Shown one piece after another: positions 3,256 through 55,642 of a DNA stretch of 64,000 bases. Where the stretch lies: the NCBI RefSeq assembly GCF_002831585.1, contig NZ_CP025113.1, positions 4,603,001-4,667,000 of the forward strand, written 5' to 3'. The stretch is from Bradyrhizobium sp. SK17. Lineage in GTDB: Bacteria > Pseudomonadota > Alphaproteobacteria > Rhizobiales > Xanthobacteraceae. The notes below the pieces were generated by a model. The model did no database searches, was not told the DNA's origin, and was given only the letters and a program-made list of their open reading frames with translations. The position numbers and the translations under genes were made by a program. Positions within the stretch are counted from its first letter, which is position 1. Every line of letters begins with the position of its first letter.

Positions 3256-3403
3256 CGCGGGATGCGCGCTCGGAGACGCGCGCGGCCGGTGCTGCTCGCG
3301 TCTCGTATGCGCGCATGGCGGTCGCGCGCGAAGTTCATGACCCCAGAGGTAATGGAAAGCGCGCAACGTTCGGCTATCGTCGCGCGGCAGATGGAGGCGC
3401 GCG

Positions 3404-3856
3404 ATGCTGTATGCGGAAGATCTCACCGAGGGCCAGACATTCAAGCTTGGCACCTACACGATCGGAGAGGCGGAGATTCTGGCGTTCGCCGGAAAATATG
3501 ATCCGGTGCCGATCCATACCAATCCGGCCGCTGCTGCCGTGGGGCCGTTCGGAGGGCTGATCGCAAGCGGCTTCAATACCATGGCGATCTATCAGCGCCT
3601 CGTCGTGGAGGCGATCTGGACCAAGGTGGCGGGCATCGTCGGCCGCAGCTTCGAGATCCGGCTTCCCAGTCCGGTTCGGCCGGGAGCGACACTCACCGGC
3701 CAATCGGAAATCCAGAAGATCACCCTCAGGCCGGAGCGGCGCGACGCCGTGGTGATCTTCAAGACCGAACTCGTCAACGACGAGCAGCGCCCCGTTCTCG
3801 TCCTCGTGCTCGATGCGCTGATCCATATGCGACCTACGGCGCGCGGGCAGTCCTAA
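3404..3856 (+). CDS. MaoC-like hot-dog hydratase
   Basis: This 150-residue protein has the R-hydratase/MaoC signature DPVPIHTNPAAA followed by FGGLIASGFNTMA. It carries the catalytic Asp and His of the hydratase-2 motif (D-P-x-P-I-H). Such single hot-dog proteins hydrate trans-2-enoyl-CoA or related CoA esters in the cytoplasm. The length is typical of the small MaoC class. No fatty-acid gene is adjacent, so the substrate is unknown. The 148 bases before it carry nothing I can identify. Confidence 0.8.
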   Translation: MLYAEDLTEGQTFKLGTYTIGEAEILAFAGKYDPVPIHTNPAAAAVGPFGGLIASGFNTMAIYQRLVVEAIWTKVAGIVGRSFEIRLPSPVRPGATLTGQSEIQKITLRPERRDAVVIFKTELVNDEQRPVLVLVLDALIHMRPTARGQS

Positions 3857-3914
3857 CCTCCGCACCGCGGAATTCCCCGCGGCCGCTCGTGCCCGAGCGC
3901 TGCGTTTGCACTAG

Positions 3915-3947
3915 TACCTTGCATTGCATGGTACCTTGCTATATACA
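3915..3947 (+). promoter_or_regulatory. padR promoter with overlapping PadR-type operator
   Basis: TACCTTGCA-T-TGCATGGTA (3915-3933) is a 19-bp inverted repeat with one mismatched pair. It covers the -35 hexamer TTGCAT (3919-3924), which lies 17 bases before a -10 TATACA (3942-3947). PadR regulators commonly repress their own promoters from such palindromes, so autorepression of the padR-DUF1700 operon is inferred. Confidence 0.6.
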
Positions 3948-3971
3948 GTTCCTGTGACGTGCAGGAGTTCG

Positions 3972-4301
3972 ATGGCGGAATCGACGATCCAGGTTCAGCT
4001 CAAGAAGGGAGCGCTCGAGATGTGCGTGCTGGCGCTGCTGGCCCGTGGGGAAAGCTATGCCTATGAAATCGCGAGCACGCTCGCCTCGGGCATCGGGATG
4101 GGCGAGGGCACGATCTATCCTTTGATGCGCCGCATGCAGGATGACGGGCTGGTCGACACGCGCCTCGTCGAGTCCAGCAGCGGGCCACCGCGGAAATACT
4201 ATCGGCTGACGGCGGCTGGCCGTGCCGCGCTCGCCGCCCAGAAGCGCGAATGGCAGGTGTTTACCGACGCGGTCGACCAACTGCTCGGAGAGCGCAAATG
4301 A
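3972..4301 (+). CDS. PadR-family transcriptional regulator
   Basis: The ATG at 3972 follows AGGAG and gives 109 residues; upstream codons in frame overlap the promoter. The protein is a short PadR winged helix: LKKGALEMCVLALLARGESYAYEIAS, the recognition region GEGTIYPLMRRMQDDGLV and the wing SGPPRKYYRLTAAGR. It is the single-domain class that is partnered with DUF1700 genes. The stop overlaps the next start by four bases (ATGA), so the two are translationally coupled. Autoregulation through the palindrome over the promoter is likely. Confidence 0.92.
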   Translation: MAESTIQVQLKKGALEMCVLALLARGESYAYEIASTLASGIGMGEGTIYPLMRRMQDDGLVDTRLVESSSGPPRKYYRLTAAGRAALAAQKREWQVFTDAVDQLLGERK

Positions 4302-4870
4302 ACAGGGCGGCCTTCCTGCGACGTCTCTCGGATGGACTGGCGGGCCTCCCGGCACGTGAAGCCGAGGACATCCTCGATGACTACAGCGCGTATTTCGACG
4401 AGGGTTTCGCAGATGGACGCAGCGAAGAGGATGTCGCGGCGGCGCTCGGCGATCCGGCGCGGCTGGCACGCGAGCTGCGTGCCGAGACCGGCCTGAAGCG
4501 CTGGGAACAGGATCACAGCCTGCGCAACTCGGCATCGGTGCTGCTTGCCATCGGTGGTCTTGCCGCCGTCGACATCGTCGTGCTGCTGCCGCTGTTGTTT
4601 GCGGCGCTGATCACCGTGCTGGTTCTAGGTCTCGTGATGTTCGTGCTCGGGATCGTCGGGATCGGGCTGCTCATCAGCGTCTTCAAGCTCGCCGCGGTCG
4701 CGTCGATTGCGAAGCTGATGCTGCGCACTGTCGCCGGCATCGGACTGCTATCCGCCAGCGGCGGCATCGCGCTGCTGCTGTTGTTCGCTGTCAATGTCGC
4801 GGTCGGCAGGCTCGGCAGCTACGCGCGGCTGCATTACCGATTGCTCAAGCCCGAGCAGCACGCCGGCTGA
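4298..4870 (+). CDS. DUF1700 membrane protein
   Basis: This 190-residue protein has the DUF1700 N terminus (MNRAAFLRRLSDGLAGLPA, then ILDDYSAYFDEGFADGRSEEDVAAALGDP), an alpha-helical cytoplasmic domain. Three to four hydrophobic segments follow (about residues 80-175). PadR-DUF1700 pairs are widespread and thought to sense or tune envelope stress; the precise activity is not established. The ATGA overlap with padR shows they form an operon. The start is fixed by that overlap. Confidence 0.85.
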   Translation: MNRAAFLRRLSDGLAGLPAREAEDILDDYSAYFDEGFADGRSEEDVAAALGDPARLARELRAETGLKRWEQDHSLRNSASVLLAIGGLAAVDIVVLLPLLFAALITVLVLGLVMFVLGIVGIGLLISVFKLAAVASIAKLMLRTVAGIGLLSASGGIALLLLFAVNVAVGRLGSYARLHYRLLKPEQHAG

Positions 4871-4889
4871 ATACCGGAGGAGGGTGACC

Positions 4890-6014
4890 ATGCGTGTGCC
4901 TCAGACTTTCAGGATCGGGATCGATCGGCGTCGCGTTCTGGCCGGGCTGGGGGCGAGCCTGCTCATGCCATCGGCCGCGTCGGCACTGCCGTCGGCGGAG
5001 GACATCGCCCACCGTCTCGCGCAAGCAGAGGGCGCAGATCGGATCAGCGGACTGCACGCGCTGCTGGTGAGCCAGGGCGACCGGCTGCTGTTCGAGCACT
5101 ATGGCAAGGGCGACGACGAATCCGAAATCGGGGGAGCGCTGCACGACGTCGTGTTCGGTCCCGATGTTCCGCATGATCTGCGTTCGGTGTCGAAGAGCGT
5201 GGTCGGTCTCGTCTACGGCATCGCGCTCGCCGCCGGCAAGGTGCCGCCGCCCGAGGCAAAGCTGTACGACCAGTTTCCCGAATATGCCGATCTCGCGCGC
5301 CAGCCGGGCCGCGACCGCATCACGATCCATCATGTGCTGTCGATGACGCTCGGCATCGAATGGGACGAACTCACCGTCCCCTATGGGCGCGACCTGCGTA
5401 ATTCGGAGATCGCGATGGAGGCCGCGCCCGAGCGCTTCCGTTTCATCCTGGAGCGGCCGATCATCGCCGAACCCGGTACCAAATGGAGCTATTGCGGCGG
5501 CGCGACCGCGCTGTTGGGACATCTCATCTCGCAGGGCACCGGCGAGCCGCTGCTCGCCTATTGCCGCCGCGTGCTGTTCGATCCGCTGAGCTTCGGTCGC
5601 GTCGATTGGGCGAAGGGCGTGGGCGATGGCCAGTATCGCGCGGCGTCGGGGCTGCGTCTGCTGCCGCGCGATCTGCTCAAGATCGGTCAGCTGGTGCGCG
5701 CCGGTGGTGCGTGGGGCGGCCGGCAGATCGTGCCGCGCAACTGGCTGACGCGCATGCTCGCGCCGGCGGTCATGATGGAAGATGGCCGCCGCTACGGCTA
5801 CCAATGGTATCTCGGCGCATCGTTCGCCGCCGCGTTGCCGCATCCGGAGCGCTGGGCTGGAGGCATCGGCTGGGGCGGACAGCGTCTCTATCTGTTCCCT
5901 GCGCTCGACCTCGTCGTCGTGCAGTGCTGCGGCAATTACGACAAGCCCGCGGCGGAACAGCGGCGCATCAACGACGTCGTTATCGACGAGGTCGTGCTGC
6001 CCGTCCTGGCCTGA
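4890..6014 (+). CDS. Tat-exported serine hydrolase (beta-lactamase/penicillin-binding family)
   Basis: The ATG at 4890 follows GGAGG and begins a twin-arginine signal (RRRVLAGLGASLLMPSAASA). The mature protein is a class-C beta-lactamase-like serine hydrolase. The catalytic S-x-x-K is in RSVSKSVVG, the region equivalent to Y-x-N is WSYCGGA, and the C-terminal strand motif is GGIGWGGQ in place of KTG. These deviations suggest an esterase or transesterase rather than an antibiotic-degrading enzyme. It is 374 residues long and lies 19 bases after the DUF1700 gene, so it may be the third gene of the PadR operon. Confidence 0.82.
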   Translation: MRVPQTFRIGIDRRRVLAGLGASLLMPSAASALPSAEDIAHRLAQAEGADRISGLHALLVSQGDRLLFEHYGKGDDESEIGGALHDVVFGPDVPHDLRSVSKSVVGLVYGIALAAGKVPPPEAKLYDQFPEYADLARQPGRDRITIHHVLSMTLGIEWDELTVPYGRDLRNSEIAMEAAPERFRFILERPIIAEPGTKWSYCGGATALLGHLISQGTGEPLLAYCRRVLFDPLSFGRVDWAKGVGDGQYRAASGLRLLPRDLLKIGQLVRAGGAWGGRQIVPRNWLTRMLAPAVMMEDGRRYGYQWYLGASFAAALPHPERWAGGIGWGGQRLYLFPALDLVVVQCCGNYDKPAAEQRRINDVVIDEVVLPVLA

Positions 6015-7806: not shown

Positions 7807-8616
7807 TCAGGACTTTAGTAGCTTCCTAATGCCACGCTTTGCACGTCGTACGCCGGCCGCAATGTTGTTCTTCACGATCTCTGCCGGCATTAGCACCAAG
7901 CCCTTCATTCTCTCTTCCGGTCGGGCTCTGAAGATGGTGCTGTGGCTAGCACCAGTCCAATGTGCCGGGGCCTCCTTGGTGTAGTAGTAAGTTGCAAAAG
8001 ATCGTCGCGGAGCGGGCGCGGAGGGAGAGACCGGGATCACCCCGTGGTAGCTGACCTCGTTGGTTTCAAAGATTACGCAGCGGTTGAATATTGGGTCGAA
8101 TGTCGCTTCGCAGTGCTCTACGTCAGCGTCCCACAACTGGAATTGGCCGCCCCAAGCCTTTTGCCACGGCTCATTGAGATAAAGCAGGAGATTCAATCGC
8201 CGGTGAAGCTGTCTATCCTCGATGAAGTTGAAGTCAACATGAACGTCCAGCCTGCCCCCCGGGCCTGTGATGTGGATGCCGCCGCCGAGCAACTGCTCGT
8301 CAGCAAGGAGATTTGGCATGTTTGTAATATAGGAGAGATCGGCGAGAAACTCTGATGATGCAAGGGCCGTATTCAAGGTGCTGACGGCGCCGGTAAACTT
8401 TCTATAGTCGGAGACTTGGACCTTCTTGCGCTCATTGACCGTTTTGAAGGTCTTACCGAGTTCTAGCGCTGATCCGAAATCGGGATAAGCCGCGACAACG
8501 GCCCTGGCGTCGTCGGCGGGAATAAAGTCATCGATCACGATATGTGGGACAGGCTTTGCTGTCGTAAACTGCTCCCGAAGCTTCTCGCGGTCGAACCGTC
8601 CAAATGGATTGTTCAC
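7807..8616 (-). CDS. 2OG-Fe(II) oxygenase (prolyl-4-hydroxylase-like)
   Basis: The 269-residue protein starts at GTG after a strong GAGGAG ribosome site. It shows the double-stranded beta-helix iron triad: HVDFNF (His and Asp) and SYHGV (distal His). An Arg in RRSFATYYY should bind 2-oxoglutarate. The region RLNLLLYLNEPWQKAWGGQFQLWD is typical of the group of 2OG enzymes found in glycan-modification clusters. The gene follows the SAM methyltransferase by 11 bases, so they are co-transcribed. Hydroxylation of a polysaccharide or a small metabolite is inferred from context. Confidence 0.85.
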   Translation of the reverse strand: MNNPFGRFDREKLREQFTTAKPVPHIVIDDFIPADDARAVVAAYPDFGSALELGKTFKTVNERKKVQVSDYRKFTGAVSTLNTALASSEFLADLSYITNMPNLLADEQLLGGGIHITGPGGRLDVHVDFNFIEDRQLHRRLNLLLYLNEPWQKAWGGQFQLWDADVEHCEATFDPIFNRCVIFETNEVSYHGVIPVSPSAPAPRRSFATYYYTKEAPAHWTGASHSTIFRARPEERMKGLVLMPAEIVKNNIAAGVRRAKRGIRKLLKS

Positions 8617-8627
8617 AACGTATCTCC

Positions 8628-9482
8628 TCAGCTCAAAGCGCTCGCTGACATGAAAGCTGCGTGTTCTTTAATCGTGAGCCCTTTTCTGTTGGCCGGCGAC
8701 TGGCGGGCAGGGTGGTCGAGAACGTGTCCAACGTACATTGCCTGATACCACGCAGCCGCAGCTTTCGGCCTTAACCCTGGCAGGCTTCTATCGCGATCGA
8801 TCTTTCGCATCGCATGCTCGGCATTGAATTCCTCAATTGCCGCGAGCTCGCCGCACCATTTGTTTGCAAAGAAGAAGCTGACGTCGTCGAAATACATGCT
8901 CATCGCGGGAAGGTATTTCTCTGGATCTCCGGTCAGGCATCGGAGCGCTGATTTCGAGGCGCTATAGATATCGACGTCGATTGCGATGAAGCCCAGAGGG
9001 GATTGCGGCCCCAGAGTTCCGGTGAAGCCATCGATCGTCTGGTCGATATTCCCCCATATGATCTCGGCACGACCGCCGATCTTCTTCTCGAGCGATGTCC
9101 GATCTTCCATGGCAAAATCGCCGGGATTCCATATTTCCGGGTGGTCCTTGTAGCTGTCGATCGACGGCAAGCCTGCCCCTGTATCGAAGCCGACAATCCG
9201 GAACGCGACGCCTGTTTCGGCGGTTATCAGTTCCGCACAGTCGATCATGTTGAGCAGTCCACGGCCGCTGGCGACGCCGAACTCGACCACGGTGACGGAA
9301 CTTGCGCCGACGTATCTTGCATGATCGGCTGCGCGCAGCATGCCGTAGACATAATAAGGGCGGCTAACTAGTCCATGGCGCTCGCGAGTCCTGAAGTCGC
9401 CAGTCCGGCCCACCCAGCTATCGACTCCGAGGAAATGTGTCCAAAGCTTCCGCTTGAGACGCAGTGGGAGCGAATCTACCAT
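8628..9482 (-). CDS. Class I SAM-dependent methyltransferase
   Basis: The preferred ATG (9482) gives 284 residues; an in-frame TTG 7 codons upstream is possible, and neither has a strong ribosome site. The SAM-binding glycine motif is VTVVEFGVASGRGLLNMID, followed by IVGFDTGAGLP and the acidic strand GFIAIDVDIYSASKSALRCL. A late DDVSFFF motif could bind a metal, as in TylF-like or catechol-type O-methyltransferases. It is the first gene of the cassette operon. The promoter should lie between 9483 and 9661, outside the right repeat. Confidence 0.75.
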   Translation of the reverse strand: MVDSLPLRLKRKLWTHFLGVDSWVGRTGDFRTRERHGLVSRPYYVYGMLRAADHARYVGASSVTVVEFGVASGRGLLNMIDCAELITAETGVAFRIVGFDTGAGLPSIDSYKDHPEIWNPGDFAMEDRTSLEKKIGGRAEIIWGNIDQTIDGFTGTLGPQSPLGFIAIDVDIYSASKSALRCLTGDPEKYLPAMSMYFDDVSFFFANKWCGELAAIEEFNAEHAMRKIDRDRSLPGLRPKAAAAWYQAMYVGHVLDHPARQSPANRKGLTIKEHAAFMSASALS

Positions 9483-9661
9483 TACAAAAAATCCACGATC
9501 CAAATTAGCTTGAAAAATACTCCACGTTGCTGTGCCCGCCTAGCCCCTTGACAGGCGATAGTTAACTACGGCGGGCTCAGGGTTTGGCGCGTGAAGTCTG
9601 GAGTCGTCACTCTTTATCGCGTCCCGCGATTTGTTCCCGGTTTCGAAGGGAGACCGATGTC

Positions 9662-9852
9662 GCCCGAGCCGACCGGCGTGCTGATCGCGCTCGAGCCGAG
9701 CAAGCACTGAGCGAAGCGCCCGGCACCGCCATCGCCCTCGTGACGGCGACTGCGCCGACATCACCGCAAGAGGTGCCGAAAGTCACATGGCAAATCGGCG
9801 CCGCCTGCGTATCCATCGGTTCGAGGTGGGTATCCAGGCGGTGAGGGGCAGA
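9662..9852 (+). repeat. Direct repeat, right copy (191 bp)
   Basis: This copy matches 6503-6685. It keeps the 16 terminal codons of the 97-residue gene, detached from the rest of that gene, and runs into the A of the ATG of the Myb-like gene. It appears to be the ancestral intergenic region in front of that gene. An ATG at 9658 in frame with the orphan codons creates a 16-residue micro-ORF (9658-9708). Confidence 0.93.
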
Positions 9853-45353: not shown

Positions 45354-45439
45354 GCGCTCGTGGCGGAATTGGTAGACGCGCTGCCTTGAGGTGGCAGTGG
45401 GTAACACCGTGGGGGTTCGAGTCCCTCCGAGCGCACCAC
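45354..45439 (+). tRNA. tRNA-Leu (anticodon GAG)
   Basis: The sequence folds into a class II tRNA with acceptor stem GCGCTCG/CGAGCGC, D-loop, anticodon stem CTGCC/GGCAG around TTGAGGT (anticodon GAG), a long variable arm (TGGGTAACACCGTGG), T-loop GTTCGAGTC and encoded CCA. It reads CUC and CUU codons. The retron operon ends 226 bases downstream, so this tRNA may mark an integration hotspot; that gap shows no gene. Confidence 0.97.
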
Positions 45440-45665
45440 CCCCAGAATTTGCATTGAAATCGTTACGGTTTTGGTTCCGGCGCGGCCCGATATGGGCGTG
45501 GTGGGAACCCTGGATGTTGGGGTTTGGCGTCCGGTTCTGGCTCGCGCAGAAGCCCACCACCATGCCGCGGCCTGCGTTGAATCGCCCACAGCGATTCTTC
45601 CGCTCGAACTCCCGATCGCCTGTTCGGCTTTGGCCGCTCGAGCCTGATCAGACAGGGGCGTTGGC

Positions 45666-47489
45666 TCAGCGCCGCCACCATCGCCTGAAGTAGAAAAACA
45701 ATATTGCGCCGGCGATCGCGGGGCCGCCGGGGACCGGCAGCAGGGCGAGCGCGGCCAGGATCACCAATGCGGTGACGAACCACGGTGGCCTTTTCCTGCC
45801 AGGTGCCGTCGCCGGGCCTGCCGCGGGGGCAGGCTGCGGGCCGGCTGCGTGCGTCGCACCCGCCGGTGGAGGCGGAACATTGGGCATGCGCGACGGGCTG
45901 GGCGCTGCCGTGCGCGCTTGCGCAGCCCGCTTCTTTTCGTCCTGCCGTGCCAGCGCGACCAGCACTGGGTCCGGCGCTGGCGGTGGGCGCTCCGCGGGTG
46001 CCCATTGTCGGCCAGGCGGCATCTGGCCGGTGGCCGCGGCCTTGCGGAATGCGGCGCGGGTCGGGCGCCGCGCGGAGCGCGTTGGCGCGTATTGCGCGGC
46101 GAGGCGTTGCGCACGCTGAAGCAGCGGCGTGCCGCTCGCAGGATCCACCATCACGGCGAAATGGCCGAAGCCGAGCAGCGAGCGGATCACGTCCTTGCCG
46201 GGGCCGAAATGCTTGCCCTCCGGCCCGTGGCGCTCGACCTGCTGCAGCACGGCGCGGTAGCGGCGCAACAGGTCGCGCGGCACCGCCGCCGCCTCGTTCA
46301 CGGTGAGGCCGGTAACCTCCTGGCGCGACGAGCGGCGCATCACGCGCGTCTTGTCCGGATGGATATTGAACCCTTCGGCCCCGACGATACCGTGCACGGC
46401 CTTGAGCAGTGTCCCGATCTTTTTCACCGCTTCGCCCGAGCCGGAGAAGGTCAGGTCGTCGGCGTAGCGGCTGTAGACGAAGCCGAGTGTCCGCGCGAGG
46501 CCGACAAGGCGCCGGTCGAGTTTGCGGCAGATCAGGTTGGTGATCGCCGGGCTGGTCGGCGCGCCCTGCGGCAGCAGCCGCGGGCCGTCGGCGATGAAAT
46601 GGCGCTCGCCATCGAGCGACACTTCGTCGACCATCGGCTCGGTGCACAGCAGCGCAAGCGGGATCGCGACCGCCTCCGTGTAGCCCAGCGCCTCGAACAA
46701 ACCCTTGACGCGAGCATAGGTCAGGGTCGGGAAGAAGTCCTTGAGATCGAGATTGATCACCACGTCGCGGCCGACATGGTTGCGCGCATTGGTCAGGATG
46801 GAACGCTCAGGCGCAAATCCATGCGCGGCATCATGCAGCGGCACCCGCGCGAGAATGTTGTCGAGCACCCAGTACTGCGCGCGCTTGAGGCGCGGCATCG
46901 GCGCCGAGATCAACCGCTCGCCGCCGCTCTTCTTGGGGATCGTGAAGCGCTGGTAGTGATTGACCGAGGCCACTTTCCTGTTGAAGGCGAGGAAGCGCAG
47001 CTCACCCAGCGGCACGCCCATCGCGTCGGCCAGCGCCTTGGCATCGGTGAGCGGGGGCAGGCCATCGCGCAGGGGCGTGGCGGTGGTGTGGGTATGAAGG
47101 CCGTGCGAGACGTCCTCGCCGAGATAGAGCACATCGCGCTTGCGCCGATCGTACCAGGCAAAGGCCCGGCTTTGTCGTGCCTCGGCGTTGCGACGCTTGG
47201 TCTCCTGCCGCCGCGCCATCGCCTCGGCCTTGCGGCGCTTGTGCATTTCCTTCAGCGCCCGCGCGGGATCACCGAGCGTGGCGTTCTGGCGCTGCAACTC
47301 GGTAAGCTCGCGCATCGCATCGGCGCGGGCGCGGATCACCTCCGCGGCGGGCGCCGGTGCGTCTTCGCCGTCGGGCCAGAAACCGAGCCGGATCATCTCT
47401 TCGAGGATGACCTCGTCCTTCGACGACTGGCGGATGCGGTCGTAGAGTTCCTGACGCGTCAGCGTGCCCGGAGCAACGGTCTCGTTCAC
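45666..47489 (-). CDS. Retron reverse transcriptase with C-terminal membrane tail
   Basis: The frame runs up into the ncRNA, but GTG 47489 follows GGAGGG and gives 607 residues. A helical, Arg/Lys-rich N-terminal region spans 1-115. The RT core shows NARNH (234-238, the retron NAxxH motif), LDLKDFF (247-253), QGAPTSP (308-314), YADD (342-345) and VTG (392-394, the retron VTG motif). The enzyme should copy part of the upstream RNA into msDNA in the cytoplasm. A Pro/Ala-rich tail (about 485-567) and two hydrophobic stretches (570-600) ending RRWWRR follow, unusual for retron RTs and suggesting membrane attachment. It is the last element after WGR/HEAT, SWIM and ncRNA. Confidence 0.94.
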   Translation of the reverse strand: MNETVAPGTLTRQELYDRIRQSSKDEVILEEMIRLGFWPDGEDAPAPAAEVIRARADAMRELTELQRQNATLGDPARALKEMHKRRKAEAMARRQETKRRNAEARQSRAFAWYDRRKRDVLYLGEDVSHGLHTHTTATPLRDGLPPLTDAKALADAMGVPLGELRFLAFNRKVASVNHYQRFTIPKKSGGERLISAPMPRLKRAQYWVLDNILARVPLHDAAHGFAPERSILTNARNHVGRDVVINLDLKDFFPTLTYARVKGLFEALGYTEAVAIPLALLCTEPMVDEVSLDGERHFIADGPRLLPQGAPTSPAITNLICRKLDRRLVGLARTLGFVYSRYADDLTFSGSGEAVKKIGTLLKAVHGIVGAEGFNIHPDKTRVMRRSSRQEVTGLTVNEAAAVPRDLLRRYRAVLQQVERHGPEGKHFGPGKDVIRSLLGFGHFAVMVDPASGTPLLQRAQRLAAQYAPTRSARRPTRAAFRKAAATGQMPPGRQWAPAERPPPAPDPVLVALARQDEKKRAAQARTAAPSPSRMPNVPPPPAGATHAAGPQPAPAAGPATAPGRKRPPWFVTALVILAALALLPVPGGPAIAGAILFFYFRRWWRR

Positions 47490-47537
47490 GCGGCCGGCCC
47501 TCCGGTCAGGAGTGTGGCGGAGTCGCGGAGGGGGATC

Positions 47538-47769
47538 GGAAAGGGCGCAGGCCGGATTGCCTTCGTCTCTTCTAAGAACTGGATCGATCCACTCGACGCC
47601 GGGGCGTCCACCCGTACGCAATTGGGTTCAAAGAACCCATTCTGCGATTGCGTACGGGTGGACTGCCCCGGCCCAGTGAAGATCGGGCCAGTGACGCATG
47701 CGTGGTCATGGTGCAAGGACGGCGATACGCCGCCCGGGTTGCAAGGTCCTGACCGGCCTGCGCCCTTCC
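47538..47769 (-). ncRNA. Retron msr-msd RNA
   Basis: On the minus strand a1 (47769-47753) and a2 (47555-47538) are complementary over about 17 bases with one bulge, the defining a1/a2 pairing. Between them lies msr with small hairpins (CGGCG/CGCCG at 47720-47732 and GGCCC/GGGCC at 47670-47689). A 75-base msd hairpin (47598-47672) follows: 8-bp outer stem GCCGGGGC, a 17-bp inner stem GTCCACCCGTACGCAAT paired with its perfect complement, and a terminal TGGGTT/AACCCA hairpin. The RNA sits between the SWIM and RT genes. The priming guanosine should lie just after a1, perhaps in AGG at 47750-47748, but the usual AGC is not obvious. Confidence 0.9.
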
Positions 47770-47838
47770 GAATGCAGTGATACGCGAATTGTCGCCGGAG
47801 ATTCAAGCCGGCTCTGGCGCTCGAAGCTTTCATGTCAC

Positions 47839-49509
47839 TCATGCGATGGCGGGTCCGTCCTGGGCGACGCCCTCGACTTGCGAATGGAAGATCCGGCGCA
47901 GCGCGAGCATGTGCTCGCAAGGACCGCGCATCATCTTGTTGTGGCCGTAGAAGTGACAGCTGCATCGCGCCTCGATGAGACGGTCGTCCTCGTCGATGAC
48001 GAGGTTCACCTGCTCGGTGCGGGCATTGTCGAGCACGCTGCCGCTGATGGCGCGAGCGCCCTGGTTGCGATCGATGCTGCCGATCGTCACCAGGTTGGCG
48101 TCGATCAGGCGATCGGCCTTCTCCTCCTGCGCGCTCGAGAAGCGCAACTGGGCCGGCGACAACGGCTCGCGCGTCAGCTCGCGCAGACGGTACAGCGACT
48201 TGTCGAGATCGAACATGGCGCGCCCGGCCTGGGTGTAGGCCGTCAGCGCCGCGTGCACGAGCGTCTGGTCGACGCCGGTCTGTCGTGCCAGCTCGGCGGC
48301 GCTCGCCGCGTGGGACTTGCCGAGCGCCGCGAAAACACGTTGCGCGGTGTCGTTGTCGACCTTGTGGCGCGGCGCGAGCAAATCGAATTGTCCGGCGGAC
48401 GACCAGTCATTCGCGGTCCAGCCCGACAGGCCGAGCGTGAAGCGCAGGCCGCCGAAGTCGACGACGAAGAACGACGGCAGGCCACTCCCGGTCAGGTGCA
48501 CCCGCACCGAGCGCGCCAGGGGCAGCGCCCGCCCGAGGATCGCCAGCCGCCGCCGGCCCCAGATGCGGATCTCGGCGGCTGAACTGCCGCGATAGATCGA
48601 GCGACGGAACGTGAGTCGCTCGCCCCATGGCTCGATCACCACTTCCACCGGCGCGTCCGGCTTCAGCACGAACCGCAGCGAACGCGGGCCGGCCTTCTCC
48701 TTCTTCTGCGCGAGGCGGGTGAGGATGTTGGCCATGTCCACGGGATGCAGGTCGAATACATGCGCCGGCAGGGTCATGGCGCTCGACACCTGCAGGAAGC
48801 CGCGCACCCAGCTATCCGGCAGGTCGATCTTCTCCTCGCGGAAGTCGAGCTCGTCGCCGGTCTGCACCTCGAACCCGGTGGGGTCGATGGTGAGCGTGGT
48901 GTCGCGATAGGAGCGGATTTTCTGGAATTCGTCGTAGAGCGCGTGGCTATAGTCGATATTGGTGGTGCCGAAAGCCATCTCGCCGAGGTTCTCGAACACG
49001 TCGTGGTCGCACGACAGCCGCCCGTAGCTCGATTCGTCGAGGCTGAAGCACTCGAAGAAGATCTCGTCCGGGTGCACTGTTATGACCGGATCGAGCACGA
49101 TCCAGGCGTCGCGGTTCTGCTTGTAGAGGTAGTTGAAATAGGATTGCCGCGCCGCCCAGAACGGCTTCATCAGCCGATCGCGCTCGCGGTCGAAGCCGCG
49201 GATGCGGTCCTGCAATTCCGCGATGCGCGGCCTGATCGCCGCGGACTGCGTTGTCGCCTCGGCGAGGAAGTTGGCCTCGTTCTGCTTCAGCCACTCGAAA
49301 TAGGCGGTGCGGTCGCGCGGCTTGAAGCGCAGGTCCGAGACGACGACATGATGCAGCGCGGAGATCGCCTCGCGGAATGCGAGGTGACGCGCGACCTTGC
49401 CGGTGAAGAACGTCGGCTGACGCAGCGTGTCCGGCGCGAAGGCGAACGACGATGAGGCGGCGTCGGACGAGGCGCTGGTGCTGCCGAGAAATCGATATGC
49501 GAAATTCAT
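47839..49509 (-). CDS. Retron-associated winged-helix/SWIM zinc-finger protein
   Basis: The 556-residue protein has no catalytic motif that I can see. A coiled-coil region (about 95-130) precedes several beta-rich domains. A winged helix (AASAAELARQTGVDQTLVHAALTAYTQAG) follows. The C terminus is a SWIM finger with C516, C518, C531 and H533 (CSC, then PCEH). SWIM domains bind DNA or proteins through zinc. The start overlaps the stop of the WGR gene by four bases. With the RT and ncRNA it matches the WHSWIM component of the retron class I recall as type XIII. Confidence 0.88.
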   Translation of the reverse strand: MNFAYRFLGSTSASSDAASSSFAFAPDTLRQPTFFTGKVARHLAFREAISALHHVVVSDLRFKPRDRTAYFEWLKQNEANFLAEATTQSAAIRPRIAELQDRIRGFDRERDRLMKPFWAARQSYFNYLYKQNRDAWIVLDPVITVHPDEIFFECFSLDESSYGRLSCDHDVFENLGEMAFGTTNIDYSHALYDEFQKIRSYRDTTLTIDPTGFEVQTGDELDFREEKIDLPDSWVRGFLQVSSAMTLPAHVFDLHPVDMANILTRLAQKKEKAGPRSLRFVLKPDAPVEVVIEPWGERLTFRRSIYRGSSAAEIRIWGRRRLAILGRALPLARSVRVHLTGSGLPSFFVVDFGGLRFTLGLSGWTANDWSSAGQFDLLAPRHKVDNDTAQRVFAALGKSHAASAAELARQTGVDQTLVHAALTAYTQAGRAMFDLDKSLYRLRELTREPLSPAQLRFSSAQEEKADRLIDANLVTIGSIDRNQGARAISGSVLDNARTEQVNLVIDEDDRLIEARCSCHFYGHNKMMRGPCEHMLALRRIFHSQVEGVAQDGPAIA

Positions 49510-52500
49510 GCGGCGGTTCCGCTGGTTTGCGAGCCGCCGCCCGGCGCCGTGCGACCGGCGCGGGCCACGGTGATGGGCAGCGCGAGATCCGGCCAGGCAT
49601 GCGCGACGTCGCGCAGGATGATCAACGCGGGCGCCTTGTCACGCAGGGTCACGCTGAGCGTGAAGTCGTGCAGGAGCTGTGCGATCGCGGCCGCGCGATC
49701 GCGGTGCGCCAGCGCCTCGTTGCGCAGTGCCGTGAAGATCCGGTCCTTGGCGATACGCCCGCGGTTGATCTGCATCAGGATGATGCGGGCCTGGGTGAGG
49801 AACTTGGCGAAGATCGTCGCATCCGCCAGCGACTGGCCGGTGATCAATTCGGTGACAAAGAGATGGAAGCTGCCGGAAGGGTGCTCCAGCACGCGCCCCA
49901 GCACCTCGGCGATATCGCCGTCGGCGAGGCTGCGCCGCAGCAGCAGGCGGGCGCCGTCCTGCACCGCCGGTACGGTCGAGTCCGCCATGACGGCCAACGC
50001 GGCCGCGGGCAGCGCGTCGCCGGGCCAGGCGGTGAGGCGGTTCACCGCGGTCGTTCGTACGTCGTCCCACTCGCTCTCGACCAGCAGCACGGCGTTCTGC
50101 GGGTCGGCGCGGAAGCGGGCCTCGTCAGCTTCAAAGGCATGAAGCGCGAAGCGGCGCACGGCGGCGAACGGATGGTTGCCGAGGCGCGCAAGCTGCCGGA
50201 TCGAGAAGTGCGACGGGGCGCGGCTCTCCAACAGTGTCGCGCCCAGCATGCGGGCGCCGCCGGCACGTGCCTGCAACAGGCGCCAGAGCGTACCATCGTC
50301 GATGCCGGCCGCGGCCTGCGGCAAGGCTTCGACGAACAGCGTCACCATGTCGGCGGCATGGCCTTCGACCGGCTCGGCGCGGAAGAAGCCGGCCATCAAT
50401 GCGTCGCGCAGCCGGATGGCAAAAGCTTCATCGGTCGCCGCAAGACGCGCGACAAGCGGACGGGCGGCCGCGCGCAGCCCGGCATGGGCGCCGGTGGCCG
50501 CCAGGGTGATGCCATCGCGATGCTGCGCAAGCGCTGCGTCGTCGAGCCGCGCCAGCAGGCGCATCGAGGCGATGCGGATCTCCGGCGCATCGGCCTGCAA
50601 GATGGCCTGCCAGAATGCTTCCGGCAGGTCGCCGGGCTGCGTCGGCGTCACGGCGATGAGCTGGATGCTGGCCGCCTGCACGTCGGGGCTGGCGTGGCCG
50701 GTCAGGCCTTCGATCACCTCGGGCTCGAGGGGGCAGTCGCGATCTGGCCATAGCTGAGGCAGCAGCGCGAGAGCCGCGGCGAGGCCGGCGCGCTGCAGGG
50801 CGTCAAGTTCTGCCGGTAACTGCGCGAGCCAGGCCGCGAACGCCTGCGTTGCGCTGGCGCGCTGCTCTCGTGCTGGCGCGCGATCGCGCAGCCAGTGGCG
50901 AGCGCGGCCTTGCACGTCGTCGTACGGGCTCGTCAGCGCGGCGCGAGCAAGCGCGGGGTTGGCCCACGGCCAGTCGGCGCGATCGTCGATGGCGCGGATC
51001 GCCAGATCGCGCATCTCAGATGCCGTCGTCTCGAGCAGTGCGGCGATCAACGCCGCATCGGCCCTGCCGGCATCGATCAGACGCCGCGCGATCGCGGTCG
51101 CGAGCGTAGTGACTTCCGGATAGGGCGAGGCCAGCAGGCCGCCGATCGCGGCGATATCCATCGCATCGGGGCGTGCTGGACCCTCACGCAGTGCTTCGGC
51201 CGCGAACCGCGCCGCCGCATGATTGCGCGCCAGCGCCGCGACGCGCAGCAGCCGCTGCGGCTGGGCATCCCATAGCGCGGGGAACGCTTCCTCGCGCTGC
51301 GCTGGCGCACGCGCGCCGACATGGCGATGCGTGAGCGCTTTGTCATAGAAGCGCGTGGTTGCAGCCGTGGCATGCAGCAGATGGCTGACGCTCCAGACGC
51401 GGCTGAGCGCTTCGGTGGAATGGGGGATGGGACGAAAGCTGCCGTCGATCCGGACATGCTCGGTCCACGTCGCCGGCTTGGTGCCATCGGCGTCGGTGAA
51501 GGCGAGGAGGAGGTCGCTCGCCATCGCCGTGAAGGCGTCCTGTCCGAGCTCGGCGCGCTTGCGCAGCATGCGCCAGGTGCGCCGCTTGAAATAGAGCAGC
51601 GTCTGGTCGGACAGCGCGATGCGCGGAGCTGCGCTCTGCTGTTCCTCGCTGAGCTTCAGCGCCTGGCGGGAACCCGGTATCCAGACGCGGTCGTTATAGA
51701 TCCGGCCGCGATAATACATCGGCGTCGCCAACTCGAATTGCCGTGCCGTCGCGGCGAACAGCGGACCGTCGTCGGTGAGATCGGCATATTTGAACAGGCG
51801 CCGCAGCACCTGCACGAAAGGCGGCCGCGGGCTCATCGCGTGCACGGCCGCGAGCAGCGTCTTGCGCGCGGCGGAGTCTGCGAGTGCTTGATGGGCGAGG
51901 GCGATCAGGAACTGATTGGCAAAACCTGGATGCGCGCCGTTCGCCGCCAGCAGCGCTTGCGTCAAGCCGGCGCCATTGCCGTTCACGAGCGCCATCTCAA
52001 TGTCGCGCATCGCCGCGGTATCTGACGCTCGCGGCAGCGACAGTCGCGGTGACGATCGCCGCGTGCCCATCAATTCGCTTGCGAGGGCATAGGCCGCGTA
52101 ATCGCGCGTCACCGGACTGGCATTGACGTCGGCGCAGCGGCGCAACACGTCGAAGGCGTCCGCGCCGCCGCAGCGTGCCAGCGCATACACCAGGCTGTAA
52201 CTCGCATGCGCCGCGCCAAACTTCTCGGCGAGGGCCGCGAGTTGAGGATAGGCCGACGCCAGCCGGACTACGCCGAGGCGCCACAGCAGGCGGTCGCGCT
52301 CCTTTTCCGGCCACGCGTTTCGCGCACAGATCGCGAGCTTTCTGAGAAGTTCCGCATCGCGTCCGTTGGCATCGGCAGCAGCATCGCGAGCGATCAACGG
52401 CGGTGCATCGCCCTCGATGCGGCGGTAGCCACCGTTGATCTTGGATACCACGACGCTGTCGAACAGCTTTTCGGCGTTCGCGCGCGTAACCGGCGATGTC

Positions 52501-52664
52501 GTCTTGGTTCCGTCCCTCAGGGATGTGCCGCGGCGGCCATATCTAAAATTGACGAGATAGCGTGCGTCGTTATCGGCACGTTCCAGATCGACCAGATCGA
52601 TTTCGTAGAGCTTGTCGGAACCGCCTTCCTTCATCCAGAGGCGAACGGAACGTACGACTTGCAT
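49506..52664 (-). CDS. Retron-associated WGR + HEAT/ARM-repeat protein
   Basis: The 1052-residue protein starts MQVVRSVRLWMKEGGSDKLYEIDL and has an N-terminal WGR domain (to about residue 90; YLVNFRYGRRGTSLRDGTKT). WGR domains bind nucleic acid or its ends, as in PARPs. The remaining ~950 residues are alpha-helical repeats typical of HEAT/ARM proteins (units such as ALPAAALAVMADSTVPAVQDGARLLL). No enzyme motif is visible. It is the first gene of the retron operon, its 3' end coupled to the SWIM gene. The pairing corresponds to the ARM component of retron type XIII. Confidence 0.88.
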   Translation of the reverse strand: MQVVRSVRLWMKEGGSDKLYEIDLVDLERADNDARYLVNFRYGRRGTSLRDGTKTTSPVTRANAEKLFDSVVVSKINGGYRRIEGDAPPLIARDAAADANGRDAELLRKLAICARNAWPEKERDRLLWRLGVVRLASAYPQLAALAEKFGAAHASYSLVYALARCGGADAFDVLRRCADVNASPVTRDYAAYALASELMGTRRSSPRLSLPRASDTAAMRDIEMALVNGNGAGLTQALLAANGAHPGFANQFLIALAHQALADSAARKTLLAAVHAMSPRPPFVQVLRRLFKYADLTDDGPLFAATARQFELATPMYYRGRIYNDRVWIPGSRQALKLSEEQQSAAPRIALSDQTLLYFKRRTWRMLRKRAELGQDAFTAMASDLLLAFTDADGTKPATWTEHVRIDGSFRPIPHSTEALSRVWSVSHLLHATAATTRFYDKALTHRHVGARAPAQREEAFPALWDAQPQRLLRVAALARNHAAARFAAEALREGPARPDAMDIAAIGGLLASPYPEVTTLATAIARRLIDAGRADAALIAALLETTASEMRDLAIRAIDDRADWPWANPALARAALTSPYDDVQGRARHWLRDRAPAREQRASATQAFAAWLAQLPAELDALQRAGLAAALALLPQLWPDRDCPLEPEVIEGLTGHASPDVQAASIQLIAVTPTQPGDLPEAFWQAILQADAPEIRIASMRLLARLDDAALAQHRDGITLAATGAHAGLRAAARPLVARLAATDEAFAIRLRDALMAGFFRAEPVEGHAADMVTLFVEALPQAAAGIDDGTLWRLLQARAGGARMLGATLLESRAPSHFSIRQLARLGNHPFAAVRRFALHAFEADEARFRADPQNAVLLVESEWDDVRTTAVNRLTAWPGDALPAAALAVMADSTVPAVQDGARLLLRRSLADGDIAEVLGRVLEHPSGSFHLFVTELITGQSLADATIFAKFLTQARIILMQINRGRIAKDRIFTALRNEALAHRDRAAAIAQLLHDFTLSVTLRDKAPALIILRDVAHAWPDLALPITVARAGRTAPGGGSQTSGTAA

Positions 52665-52692
52665 TGACCACCCTGGGATGTCCGGGGCGGAC

Positions 52693-52721
52693 TACATCGC
52701 AAGCGGAGCGCGCTGCGTCAA
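52693..52721 (-). promoter_or_regulatory. Candidate retron operon promoter
   Basis: On the minus strand -35 TTGACG (52721-52716) and -10 GATGTA (52698-52693) are separated by 17 bases. The predicted start point is about 20 bases before the ATG of the WGR gene. The rest of the 234-base stretch to 52898 carries no clear gene. Confidence 0.5.
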
Positions 52722-52898
52722 TGGGCGCCTGGTGCAGACGGACTTCGCGTGTGACGTCGAGGTTCCGACCGATGCGGTTCTGTAACACCAGCCGGGTAGG
52801 GTAGCTGTTGCACGGCCTTGCTGGTATGGCGCTGCTGACCGGAGGTCGCTGCGTCTCCCGATCGCGCCGCCGCGAGCCTGCCCCACCCGGAGTATCCG

Positions 52899-53273
52899 AT
52901 GATCCTTGCCAGCTACGCCTATCGCGCCCTCTCCAATTTCGTGTTCCTGGGGCTGGTCTATTTCACGCTGAACCTGCTGGAGAAGTACGAGCAGCGCGCG
53001 ACGGTCGCGATCCTGATCCTGGTCTATGCGGCGATGCATGCGTTCTCCGGCCTGCGCTCGTTCTATTTCTTCCAGCGGATCGAGCGGCTGGAAGGCGAGA
53101 CGCGGCGGTTGGCCGCAGCGGCCGGCGAGGGCCCCAATGCGGCGGCCTCGCGCAAGCAGATCGTCGCCGGTGTCACCGAACTCAGGCATGCCGGCGAGAT
53201 CAAATCCTATATCGACATCTTCTTTCTGGCGCTGGTGATCCTGCTCTGTGTCGCCAAGATCGTGGCCAGCTAG
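52899..53273 (+). CDS. Small membrane protein
   Basis: The 124-residue protein has three hydrophobic segments (LSNFVFLGLVYFTLNLLEKY, RATVAILILVYAAMHAFSG and IKSYIDIFFLALVILLCVAK) and a short cytoplasmic helix between the second and third. It has no recognised motif. It converges on the polysaccharide deacetylase gene. Confidence 0.65.
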   Translation: MILASYAYRALSNFVFLGLVYFTLNLLEKYEQRATVAILILVYAAMHAFSGLRSFYFFQRIERLEGETRRLAAAAGEGPNAAASRKQIVAGVTELRHAGEIKSYIDIFFLALVILLCVAKIVAS

Positions 53274-53279
53274 ATCGCA

Positions 53280-54626
53280 CTAATCAGGTACGCGCTTGCT
53301 GGCGGCCGAGGCTTCGGCGCGCGGCGTGCGCTTGGTGACGTGTACTGCCGCGTTGCTCGCGGCCGGCAGTCCGACATGCTGCGGCATGCCGTGGCCTCTG
53401 CCATGCGGAGCGGGGATCTGATGCGCGGCCTGCTTCGGACGCCTGGCCTGGCGTGCCGAGATCGCCTGCGCGCGCGGTGCACCGGCGGCTGGACCAACCG
53501 CGTGTTGAGCGAGACGACGGCTTGCCGCCGATCGGGACGCGAGCAATGTTACGTCCAGCGCCTCGGGAACGCGAAACACGTCGGCCGCCGGAACAGGCAA
53601 TGTCGAGGCCGCCGCGAACTGCGTCGGCTGCGGCTGTGGCCATGCCGTGCGGACCGGCATGCCGATCCGGGCGTGCTGCGCGTGATCGAGGATGTCGGCG
53701 TCACGCCAGTCCATGTCTGCAAACACAGGCGCAGGCAGCGTGCGAGTAGCGGTGAAGATGAAGTTCGGAATCCTCGGCCAGCGCGAGATCGCCACGGTCT
53801 CGGTCGGCGGACGCATGAACCATTGCTGCGGCTGGGTCGGCGTTGCCGGCCGGTCGGCCGTGGCCGGCACCACATGGACGATGCGATAGCCGCGCTCTTT
53901 CAGCGTGGCGAGGATGCGCGGCAGCGCCGCGACGGTGCGCGGCTGGATGTCGTGCAGCAGCAGGATGCCCTTGTGCTTGGCCTCGATGCGCTGGATCGCG
54001 AGATCGTAGACCCGCTGCGGCGAGATGTGGCGCCAGTCGTCGGCCGGGAAGTCAGCGCTCCAGACCTGGATGCCCTGCGACGCCAGATAGGCCTCGGGAA
54101 TCTCGGCGCGCATCAGGCCGGGGATCCGGAAGAACGGCGCCAGCTTGCTCTTGTCGCCGTTGAGCGCTGCGAGCGTCGAGGCGATGCCGTCGTCGACTTC
54201 CTTTTGCACCTTCTCGAGCGGCATCTTGTTCATCGTCAGCGGATGATTCTGGCTGTGGGTGCCGACGGTATGGCCTGCCGCGATCAGCTTGCGCACGCCC
54301 TCCGGATTGGCCCTGGCCTGCGCGCCGATGGTGAAGAAGGTCGCCTTGACGCATTGGCTGGCGAGGATGGCCAAAATCTGGTTGCTGTATTTCGGCAGCG
54401 GTCCGTCATCGAAGGTCAGCACCACCTCGTGATCGGCGAGCGGCAAGGTCTCCGGATACTGCATGGTGCCGATCCGCGGATGCTCCCTGGGGTCGACGAC
54501 GAGGGTCCGCGAGGTGCCGAGCGCGTTCGGGTTACCCTGGCACTCCGCAGCGCCCGCCTGCTGCGTCAGCAAGCACGAGCCCAGCAGCGCCGCGCCGATC
54601 ACGGTCCGCGACCGCTTCCGGATCAT
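53280..54626 (-). CDS. Polysaccharide deacetylase with long C-terminal extension
   Basis: The preferred ATG begins a signal peptide (MIRKRSRTVIGAALLGSCLLTQQAGA); in-frame starts 7 and 16 codons upstream are possible. The NodB domain follows with TFDDGP (catalytic Asp pair), HSQNH (metal His) and FRIPGLMR, then SADFPADDW. These enzymes remove acetyl groups from surface glycans or peptidoglycan. The C-terminal ~160 residues are Pro/Ala-rich and basic, without known domains. It is followed by a second, frameshifted copy upstream on the same strand, so the pair is a tandem duplication. Confidence 0.85.
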   Translation of the reverse strand: MIRKRSRTVIGAALLGSCLLTQQAGAAECQGNPNALGTSRTLVVDPREHPRIGTMQYPETLPLADHEVVLTFDDGPLPKYSNQILAILASQCVKATFFTIGAQARANPEGVRKLIAAGHTVGTHSQNHPLTMNKMPLEKVQKEVDDGIASTLAALNGDKSKLAPFFRIPGLMRAEIPEAYLASQGIQVWSADFPADDWRHISPQRVYDLAIQRIEAKHKGILLLHDIQPRTVAALPRILATLKERGYRIVHVVPATADRPATPTQPQQWFMRPPTETVAISRWPRIPNFIFTATRTLPAPVFADMDWRDADILDHAQHARIGMPVRTAWPQPQPTQFAAASTLPVPAADVFRVPEALDVTLLASRSAASRRLAQHAVGPAAGAPRAQAISARQARRPKQAAHQIPAPHGRGHGMPQHVGLPAASNAAVHVTKRTPRAEASAASKRVPD

Positions 54627-54743
54627 CACCAGGACGTTTGCAATCATCGAATCTCGGCCGCATTCCAAACGCACTGACGAATCCTTAGGTGCCGCGCCAT
54701 GAACGCCGCCTTAACAGTCTGTAATCCAGCCTTGGGCCTGGGT

Positions 54744-55558
54744 TCAATGTGTCCGATCCGACACGGTTTTCATCGCCGCCGGCACAATGTGGACGACGTG
54801 AAAATTATGCTCCTGCAGATACCTCAAAAAGGCGGGCAGCATTTCGGCGGTTCGCATTTGCGGGTCGTGTAGCAGGATAATTCCCTTGCGGTGGGCTTCG
54901 AGCCGCCCGGTGAGCAGCTTGAGTTCCTCCTCAGGGGTCATCTTGTTCCAGTCGCTGGCCCAGAAGTCGGCCCCGAACACCGCGATACCGCGCTTTTCCA
55001 TGCGGTCCAGCAAAGCGGGGGTCGATTCGAAATACGGGAACCGGAAGAACGGCGTGCTCGGAACCGAGCTCACGGTACCGTGCAGGGCCTTGCCGACTGC
55101 TTCGATCCCCTGGTTGATGTTCGCCTCGGCCTGATCCGTCGGCATCTTGTTGAGATGCGGATGGTCCCAGCTGTGATAGCCGATGCTGTGCCCGAGGCGC
55201 GCGATCTTGCGGACCATGTCGGGGTGATCGGCGGCATTGCGGCCAACCATGAAGAAGGTGGCCAGCACGCATTCGGTCCCGAGCGCGGTCAGCACCTTGT
55301 CGGTGACCCCGGCGTCGGCCCGTCGTCGAAGGTCAGCACCACCTCGCCATCCCTGAGCGGCAGGGTCTGCGGAAAGCTCTTCAGCCCGACGCGCGGATAG
55401 GTCGCAGGATCGACCTCGAGCACACGCGAGGTACCAAGCGCGTCCTTGCGCGGGCATTCGGCGGCGTGGGCCGGGGCGACCAGCGCGGCGGGCGCGAGTG
55501 CGATCAGGATCGCGACAACGTTCAGGATCGGTCGTGGTGCGCTCGACATATTTCTCAT
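54744..55558 (-). pseudogene. Second polysaccharide deacetylase, frameshifted
   Basis: The N terminus (signal peptide MSSAPRPILNVVAILIALAP, then EVVLTFDDGPTPG) is in one frame and the rest (VTDKVLTALGTECVLATFFMVGR, YHSWDHP, FRFPYFES) in the next. Restoring one G in the run at 55307-55310 would give PTPGVTDKVLTALG and a complete NodB protein of about 270 residues. All deacetylase motifs are intact across the break, so it is either a recent loss or a sequence error in a G/C run. It lies beside its paralogue, which supports duplication. Confidence 0.8.
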
Positions 55559-55642
55559 TGCACTGGCCCCCGCCGATTAGGTAATCCGTTCCGCACTCAT
55601 CCAACCAGTTTTTCCCCTCCTGTCAAACCGGCGAAACACGGC

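Follow-up and report, generated by a model that had tools for sequence, protein, structure and literature searches.

A complete type XIII retron in Bradyrhizobium with a membrane-type reverse transcriptase tail, and orphan msd copies in the genus that probably derive from msDNA

The retron classification that Mestre and colleagues drew up in 2020 reportedly contains a type XIII, and in the open-access literature searched "retron" and "type XIII" occur together in a single paper, the PADLOC annotation of a Variovorax strain. We analysed a window of 64,000 nucleotides from the 8.29-Mb genome of Bradyrhizobium sp. SK17 (contig NZ_CP025113.1, positions 4,603,001 to 4,667,000; all positions below are those of the window), which holds an operon that is almost certainly a complete type XIII retron. 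Retron Eco1 (Ec86) resembles it in the core of the reverse transcriptase (RT; residues 141-464), the a1/a2 repeats, the msr hairpin and the msd stem, whereas the RT of the window adds a 140-residue N-terminal extension and a C-terminal hydrophobic tail, and the accessory proteins of Eco1 are different ones. Repeats resembling multicopy single-stranded DNA (msDNA) in Nannocystis exedens are said to have been reported by Lampson and Rice in 1997 and Lampson et al. in 2002. Passages of a review describe these repeats together with a partial msDNA copy in the chromosome, proposed to have been retrotransposed, and state that 10 of 63 rhizobial isolates make msDNA, the retron type not being given in those passages (PMC6868368). 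The type IX retron-Kva2, like the operon of the window, combines RT and RNA with two accessory proteins; according to passages of its report, a winged-helix protein cradles the conserved stem-loop tip of the msDNA and a phage protein is the trigger (PMC13405049). It differs in its effector, a HEPN RNase, and the words WGR and membrane are absent from the main text (PMC13405049). For retrons in general, passages of another paper describe a toxic effector restrained by RT, RNA and DNA (PMC12548924).

The operon occupies 52664-45666 on the minus strand, in the order WGR/HEAT gene, SWIM gene, RNA, RT gene. The first gene (49506..52664) encodes a WGR/HEAT-repeat protein of 1052 aa that scores 824.3 bits with the PADLOC model WGR_XIII and 55.3 and 51.7 bits with HEAT-ARM_XIII. 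The second (47839..49509) encodes a SWIM protein of 556 aa (SWIM_XIII 751.3 bits; Pfam SWIM 19.6 bits, at the cut-off), and its start shares four bases, 49506-49509, with the end of the first. An msr-msd RNA of about 231 nt (47769-47539) lies between the SWIM gene and that of the RT (45666..47483; 605 aa), which scores 597.9 bits with RT_XIII against 328.9 bits for the runner-up among the PADLOC matches listed, and 75 bits with Pfam RVT_1. All three proteins are named type XIII by these curated profiles, the assignment of the RT resting on scores rather than on a tree. The order WGR-SWIM-RNA-RT is common to 22 of 24 distinct type XIII loci found by tblastn, the other two being a remnant (L009) and a contig end (L043); nine second copies were dropped from this count, and the WGR protein of L072 was confirmed by profile. 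We see no difference that would remove the operon from the type. An earlier note on this DNA, made from the sequence, had read a type XIII retron from four elements on one strand, RT motifs (NARNH, YADD and VTG in the translation) and two large accessory genes coupled by a four-base overlap. Each of these was found, and the profile searches that it proposed for the RT, SWIM and WGR proteins bear out the type. A group II intron RT, which it had named as a counter-case, is rejected (57 bits with the model against a cut-off of 300), and no model for the RT of diversity-generating retroelements, its other counter-case, appears among 6 NCBIfam matches or the PADLOC matches listed (25 of 47). Its remark that no experimental retron of this type is known from this bacterial group stands beside the msDNA of the 10 rhizobial isolates, made by a retron whose type the review passages do not give. 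The 12 named records nearest to the RT come from Bradyrhizobium in 11 cases (one of them, a metagenome-assembled genome, being labelled Bradyrhizobiaceae) and from Foetidibacter in the twelfth. At one Bradyrhizobium embrapense locus (L011) the WGR (2819-5972) and RT (8004-9796) genes each seem broken into two frames, by decay or sequencing error.

The 241-nt RNA region folds with -148.4 kcal/mol (z-score -11.1 against shuffles); its opposite strand also folds well (z-score -9.7), as that of a hairpin should. We aligned 31 copies of the RNA from 30 loci, the window included, since one locus (L069) has two in tandem. The RNA was not found in L009, a gene remnant, or in L043, where the contig stops 214 nt upstream, and that of L012 diverges too far for alignment, its a1/a2 and msd arms being visible by eye. 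The earlier note's claim of an RNA with a1/a2 repeats and a long msd stem upstream of the RT thus holds, and homologous loci lacking it, which would have told against the claim, were limited to the remnant L009 and the contig end L043. Across the 25 sequences from the order of the window, 98.9% of cells in the helices pair, compared with 33-46% when the structure is slid by 1-3 columns, and two-sided changes number 145 against a shuffled mean of 29, none of 500 shuffles reaching 145. The aligned RNAs are related and hence not independent, a relatedness that the slid controls preserve.

The a1 arm (47753..47769, alignment columns 11-27) and the a2 arm (47539..47555, columns 225-241), the latter directly preceded by a conserved GACGAAGGC, form a duplex of 17 pairs, in which 98.1% of cells pair and 7 pairs change on both sides. 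The msr hairpin GGGCGGCG-TAT-CGCCGTCC (47717..47735, columns 45-63) is 100% paired in the 25 sequences and in all 31. In the helix that includes the msd stem (columns 88-133 with 158-202), 25 of 40 pairs show two-sided changes and 99% of cells pair; the msd long hairpin spans 47598..47672 (columns 108-182), and covariation of the msd as a stem extends over RNAs of six bacterial families (f1, f31, f35, f42, f50 and f86). At its tip, the hairpin TGGGTTC..GAACCCA (47623..47639, columns 141-157) is nearly invariant, with 6 of 7 pairs unchanged in the 25 sequences, while the stem beneath varies freely; this suggests that the tip is the part read by a protein. The tip differs in the six f86-type sequences. 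Spacing between the msr motif CTTGC and GACGAAGGC is identical in the 25 copies and 12 bases longer, again constantly, in the six f86 copies, which come from another class. The retron very probably makes msDNA, for which orphan msd copies in related genomes (below) are indirect evidence. Counting against this, the AGC motif of the priming, 2'-5'-linked G directly follows a1 in only 4 of the 25 RNAs (twice in L069, and in L071 and L079), and the window has GGTCAGGACC there. A helix GGUCA/UGACC beside a1, present in the window's best fold, was left out, by eye not being kept in L071- and L078-type sequences. In L069 the tandem RNAs (4028-4280 and 4544-4796, minus strand) precede one RT and differ in their msd stems, so two msDNAs may come from this one retron.

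The RT most likely starts at GTG 47483. The TTG at 47621, the start of the listed open reading frame (ORF), fits less well, because relatives begin at the place matching the GTG (e.g. M-TETVSPGTLTRQ) and the RNA lies between the two codons. Residues 141-464 match the Ec86 RT (E 6e-41), and the N-terminal extension outside that match (residues 1-140; 47064..47483) is conserved, with a mean identity of 0.58 among 43 homologues below 62% identity. The C-terminus consists of a poorly conserved linker followed by about 32 hydrophobic residues with a proline/glycine turn and flanking basic residues (about residues 569-600; 45684..45779; 19-residue hydropathy 2.18). A 19-residue window with hydropathy above 1.6 lies within 90 residues of the end in 107 of 118 RTs longer than 540 aa, the query included. 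Some homologues lacking the segment end by eye in a short basic, amphipathic-looking stretch. Among distinct type XIII RTs whose ORF ends in a stop the tail passes in 29 of 31, against none of 17 testable other RTs (17 of 18 were long enough; two contig-end loci and second copies were dropped, and the counts were repeated by hand).

We read the segment as a membrane hairpin that probably holds the RT at the membrane. The assignment rests on hydropathy, and L012 and L043 fail the cut, both of which weigh against it. The L012 operon (Foetidibacter) encodes, between WGR and SWIM, a 180-aa protein (5397-5939) with a strongly hydrophobic stretch (hydropathy 2.97) and a weak YcxB match under the cut-off, and the type XIII-like RT of L043 (206-2668, reverse strand) carries a C-terminal extension of about 340 aa with two, by eye, moderately hydrophobic stretches; as substitutes for the tail these are suggestive only, being one locus each. 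Defence by abortive infection appears likely for this operon, and the membrane segment is our first, if doubtful, candidate for the killing part. A reading with a little less than an even chance is that the tail is an anchor only, or no membrane segment at all, and that the WGR/HEAT or SWIM protein kills. It draws on the low sequence identity of the tail (0.23) and on the tailless RT of L012, against which stand the hydropathy that is kept while the sequence drifts and the separate membrane-type protein of the same L012 operon. Other Bradyrhizobium RTs (L028-L042) score about 216-244 bits on the type XIII model and form a separate group; several are 557 aa long and end in a protease-like GMSGGPL stretch.

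An AlphaFold2 model of the SWIM protein contains a two-domain fold like that of PCNA sliding clamps (residues 34-365; 48415..49410). Compared with PCNA, identity is 8-13% in the rows shown, and the clamp part is fused to a winged helix and a SWIM motif. The fold comes from the predicted structure alone; profile matches to PDB sequences are weak (best E 0.34). We consider this modelled fold very likely to be real, against which it may be held that it comes from one AlphaFold2 run with weak stretches at residues 60-67, 82-89, 133-138 and 222-228. It is followed by a winged-helix-like part at about residues 385-430 (48220..48357), seen in the model as helices 386-399, 404-411 and 415-427 and strands 431-434 and 439-442 and matched weakly by Pfam winged helix-turn-helix families, all under cut-off, and then by the zinc-finger motif CxC...CxH (residues 516-533; 47911..47964), which is kept in 119 of 120 homologues listed. 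No relative of the SWIM protein was found in a phage collection or, by pattern search, in viral contigs. A search of its partners for PCNA-interacting (PIP-box) or beta-clamp-like patterns gave nothing convincing: the PIP-box pattern is absent from the RT and WGR protein of the window and occurs in 19 of 120 RT and 4 of 120 WGR homologues listed.

WGR domains in PARP proteins bind DNA ends. In the WGR/HEAT protein the domain (residues 1-85; 52410..52664) is the most conserved block, with a mean identity of 0.56 against 0.27-0.33 in the other blocks (50 homologues below 60% identity); the Pfam WGR match to residues 15-83 is weak (16.7 bits, cut-off 22), and the profile of the protein matches designed HEAT-like repeats (alphaRep) with E 7.9e-21. 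It is the fastest-changing of the three proteins, at 42% identity in L068 compared with 68% and 61%.

The operon lies just downstream of tRNA-Leu, as the earlier note had stated: tRNA-Leu(gag) (45354..45438, plus strand; ARAGORN and Rfam) is about 230 bp past the RT stop. The note's "exchanged defence island" stands in part. A gene on the other flank (52899-53273) is present in 60 of 60 sampled genomes, and in three of them (L087, L089 and L091) both flanks seen in the window match and about 7.3 kb containing the operon are absent (45443..52769; limits 45443/45463 to 52755/52769). Among the ORFs of the insert none was recognised beyond the operon's own genes and no integrase was seen, and no tRNA-end repeat occurs among the shared 9-base junction words, so a classical integrase-borne, tRNA-targeting island is rejected. 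Of 16 Bradyrhizobium loci inspected, nine have the same neighbour gene, three end too early (L003, L008 and L058) and four (L007, L055, L062 and L064) lack it in 2.8-3.9 kb upstream, the retron therefore being sited elsewhere. At the same tRNA-Leu site L009 holds a remnant (8001-9476) in which a damaged RT was found but no WGR, SWIM or RNA. Two polysaccharide-deacetylase-like genes (by eye; 53280-55604) adjoin the insertion and are largely conserved at the empty site too; far from it, the window contains a ZMP/ZTP riboswitch (2297-2376; Rfam RF01750, 59.9 bits).

Occurrence is sporadic. The RT model matches 31 of 242 Bradyrhizobium genomes at E 1e-60, 15 of these with at least 500 bits (one of which, G152, holds a remnant indistinguishable from that of L009), and full RNAs were found in 14 of the 242. 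Own genome included, 7 of 347 genomes match within the order (E 1e-110) and 7 of 398 within the phylum (E 1e-90; four at 589-601 bits, three at 311-345), and two other families contribute 5 of 248 and 6 of 150.

The mechanism that best explains these features as a whole, and which we hold to be somewhat more probable than not, would run as follows. The RT, seated at the membrane by its C-terminal segment, would copy the msd into a mature DNA of about 100 nt, with a hairpin of about 31 bp and a short 3' tail. Binding of the msDNA tip would fall to the clamp/winged-helix/SWIM protein, by analogy with the winged-helix protein of type IX, and the nearly invariant tip over a variable stem would correspond to the cradled tip of retron-Kva2 (passages of PMC13405049). 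The WGR/HEAT protein would act as a sensor of altered DNA, either broken ends or phage replication intermediates; a phage disturbing the msDNA or its binders would release the complex and the cell would be stopped, possibly via the membrane segment. End joining at breaks in the host chromosome would take up some msDNA and so leave orphan copies. What tells against this scheme as a whole is that the retron is known here as gene and RNA sequence. An alternative that we think unlikely makes the operon a device for DNA damage or replication stress, with the clamp and WGR proteins at forks or breaks and the msDNA as signal or repair partner. The predicted PCNA fold, the WGR domain as the block best kept in its protein, and the deletion junction at which an msd copy stands (genome G161, below) would suit it; its sporadic presence, with full RNAs in so few genomes, its presence or absence beside the tRNA gene and the generally anti-phage nature of retrons (passages of PMC12548924) speak for defence instead.

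The proposed capture of msDNA bears on orphan copies of the msd, which lie within columns 74-186 (47594..47706), a part that we take as the inferred template of mature msDNA. Searched against 72,556 plasmids, the whole operon matched by its msd alone in seven Bradyrhizobium plasmids of about 980 kb each, and one Methylobacterium record carries a related operon. The RNA matches the seven plasmids over columns 83-183 (47697-47597) only; the orphan adjoins LrgB and IS21 genes in the two plasmids opened, and the one compared with the operon has nothing else of it. The f86-type msd (from L082) gave no plasmid match. A search of the 242 genomes with columns 80-190, matches being re-aligned with the full RNA, returned nine orphan loci in 14 genomes. 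Six genomes share one orphan (columns 83-183) in 3.1-kb loci that are 99.9-100% identical, and three more have single copies (G049, columns 87-180; G192, 135-182; G217, 102-154, 87% identical). The remaining five genomes bear a retron: G170 (columns 110-179, 100% identical to its own retron), G161 (113-186, 97.3%), G166 (84-130, 91.5%), G183 (119-148, 100%) and G001 (74-132 and 106-186 at two contig ends, both 100% identical to its own retron). Second-strand matches in G000, G171 and G183 (75% identity) are a hairpin against its own complement and were not counted. Of the 14 genomes with a full retron 5 contain an orphan, against 9 of the 228 that lack a full retron (Fisher p 0.00045); when the six-genome copy is counted once, the latter becomes 4 of 223 (p 3.7e-5). 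In all five retron-bearing genomes the resident retron is the best or joint best match among the 25 RNAs, four of the five being ties. No WGR, SWIM or RT sequence lies within 1.5 kb on either side of any orphan (up to the contig end in G001), and the orphans contain no msr hairpin. Re-alignment was free to extend, and the main matches stayed within columns 74-186.

Two orphan sites can be compared with relatives. At the G170 site, two of eight relatives align on both sides without the copy: G024 (L170) reads CGATCATCCGT-GGCG-CTCAGCTATGAG where G170 has CGATCATCCGT-msd-CTCAGCTATGAG, and the gap in G001 (L169) is related to this one but shorter. At the G161 site about 66 nt of msd stand where five relatives, the closest of 16 found, have 730-733 bp of transporter-operon sequence. 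No direct repeat or target duplication longer than 4 bases was found at the ends of seven loci; in L149 and L141 the same 4 bases recur at or close to the two ends. Ku-type end joining occurs in rhizobia, and the orphans are consistent with filler DNA inserted when breaks are joined. As DNA, columns 83-183 fold into a 5' hairpin that leaves about 25 nt free at the 3' end, and trimming of the single-stranded 5' part would fit the orphan ends close to the base of the hairpin.

From these comparisons of sequence we judge it probable that the orphans derive from msDNA, whose length, which the earlier note had put at about 70-80 nt, would then be nearer 100-113 nt. Several points weigh the other way. 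The orphans lack columns 187-224, where the cDNA begins, which calls either for trimming at the 5' end or for capture once the RNA-linked end had been lost. The G001 copy, lying in two parts at two contig ends, may be an assembly effect; two orphans measure only 30 and 47 nt; and a common ancestry of host and retron can also make the resident retron the best match. Orphan pieces of other parts of the RNA and operon were sought in plasmids only, lone msr pieces being undetectable in the genomes with a query of columns 80-190. G166 has a second weak match (columns 161-203), which the opposite strand of the same hairpin would give.

The orphans might instead be a small palindromic mobile element, akin to repetitive extragenic palindromes or miniature inverted-repeat transposable elements, that moves as DNA and of which the retron msd is one captured copy. 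Suggested by the near-perfect hairpin of the msd and by the copies in genomes without a retron, this is improbable: the ends of the orphans vary and show no symmetry (columns 83-183, 87-180, 74-186 and 110-179), in seven loci they lack direct repeats longer than 4 bases, copies match the resident retron best or jointly best, one replaced about 730 bp of gene sequence, and the msd stem covaries in RNAs of six families. That they are remains of decayed whole retrons is more improbable still, since, for all that L009 and G152 document one case of decay, no trace of WGR, SWIM or RT adjoins any orphan, the copy is missing from relatives at the G170 and G161 sites, and three orphans are 100% identical to the resident msd (one over 30 nt only), too fresh for the rest of a retron to have vanished. 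We reject both on flanks, ends and resident-retron matches, and prefer derivation from msDNA. Nannocystis exedens likewise has msr/msd-derived sequences away from the RT; compared with what passages of the review report of it (PMC6868368), the copies here differ in their nine loci across a genus, resident-retron matches, an empty site, a deletion junction and the absence of the msr hairpin.

Within the open-access searches, the orphan copies, the RT tail and the clamp fold are new here, the retron class itself being known, and type XIII as such appears to have the membrane tail and clamp fold, neither of which its model names mention. Among the literature matches listed, nothing concerned WGR/SWIM retrons, membrane-bound retron RTs, WGR-SWIM-MoxR systems, PCNA-fold SWIM proteins or msDNA end joining. 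The anatomy of type XIII, with its membrane-type RT tail, predicted clamp fold and nearly invariant msDNA tip, gives a testable mechanism. Should the orphans be msDNA that was captured, then in nature the DNA of retrons gets as far as the chromosome, where it is joined into breaks, and the mature ends of msDNA can be read from the copies; this would bear on retron genome editing and on the old Nannocystis question. More tentatively, type XIII retrons may be membrane-tethered machines with their own clamp-like protein and DNA-end reader at forks or breaks, which hand msDNA to chromosome breaks and so leave in bacteria a record of msDNA capture that can be read, the natural equivalent of genome recording with retrons.

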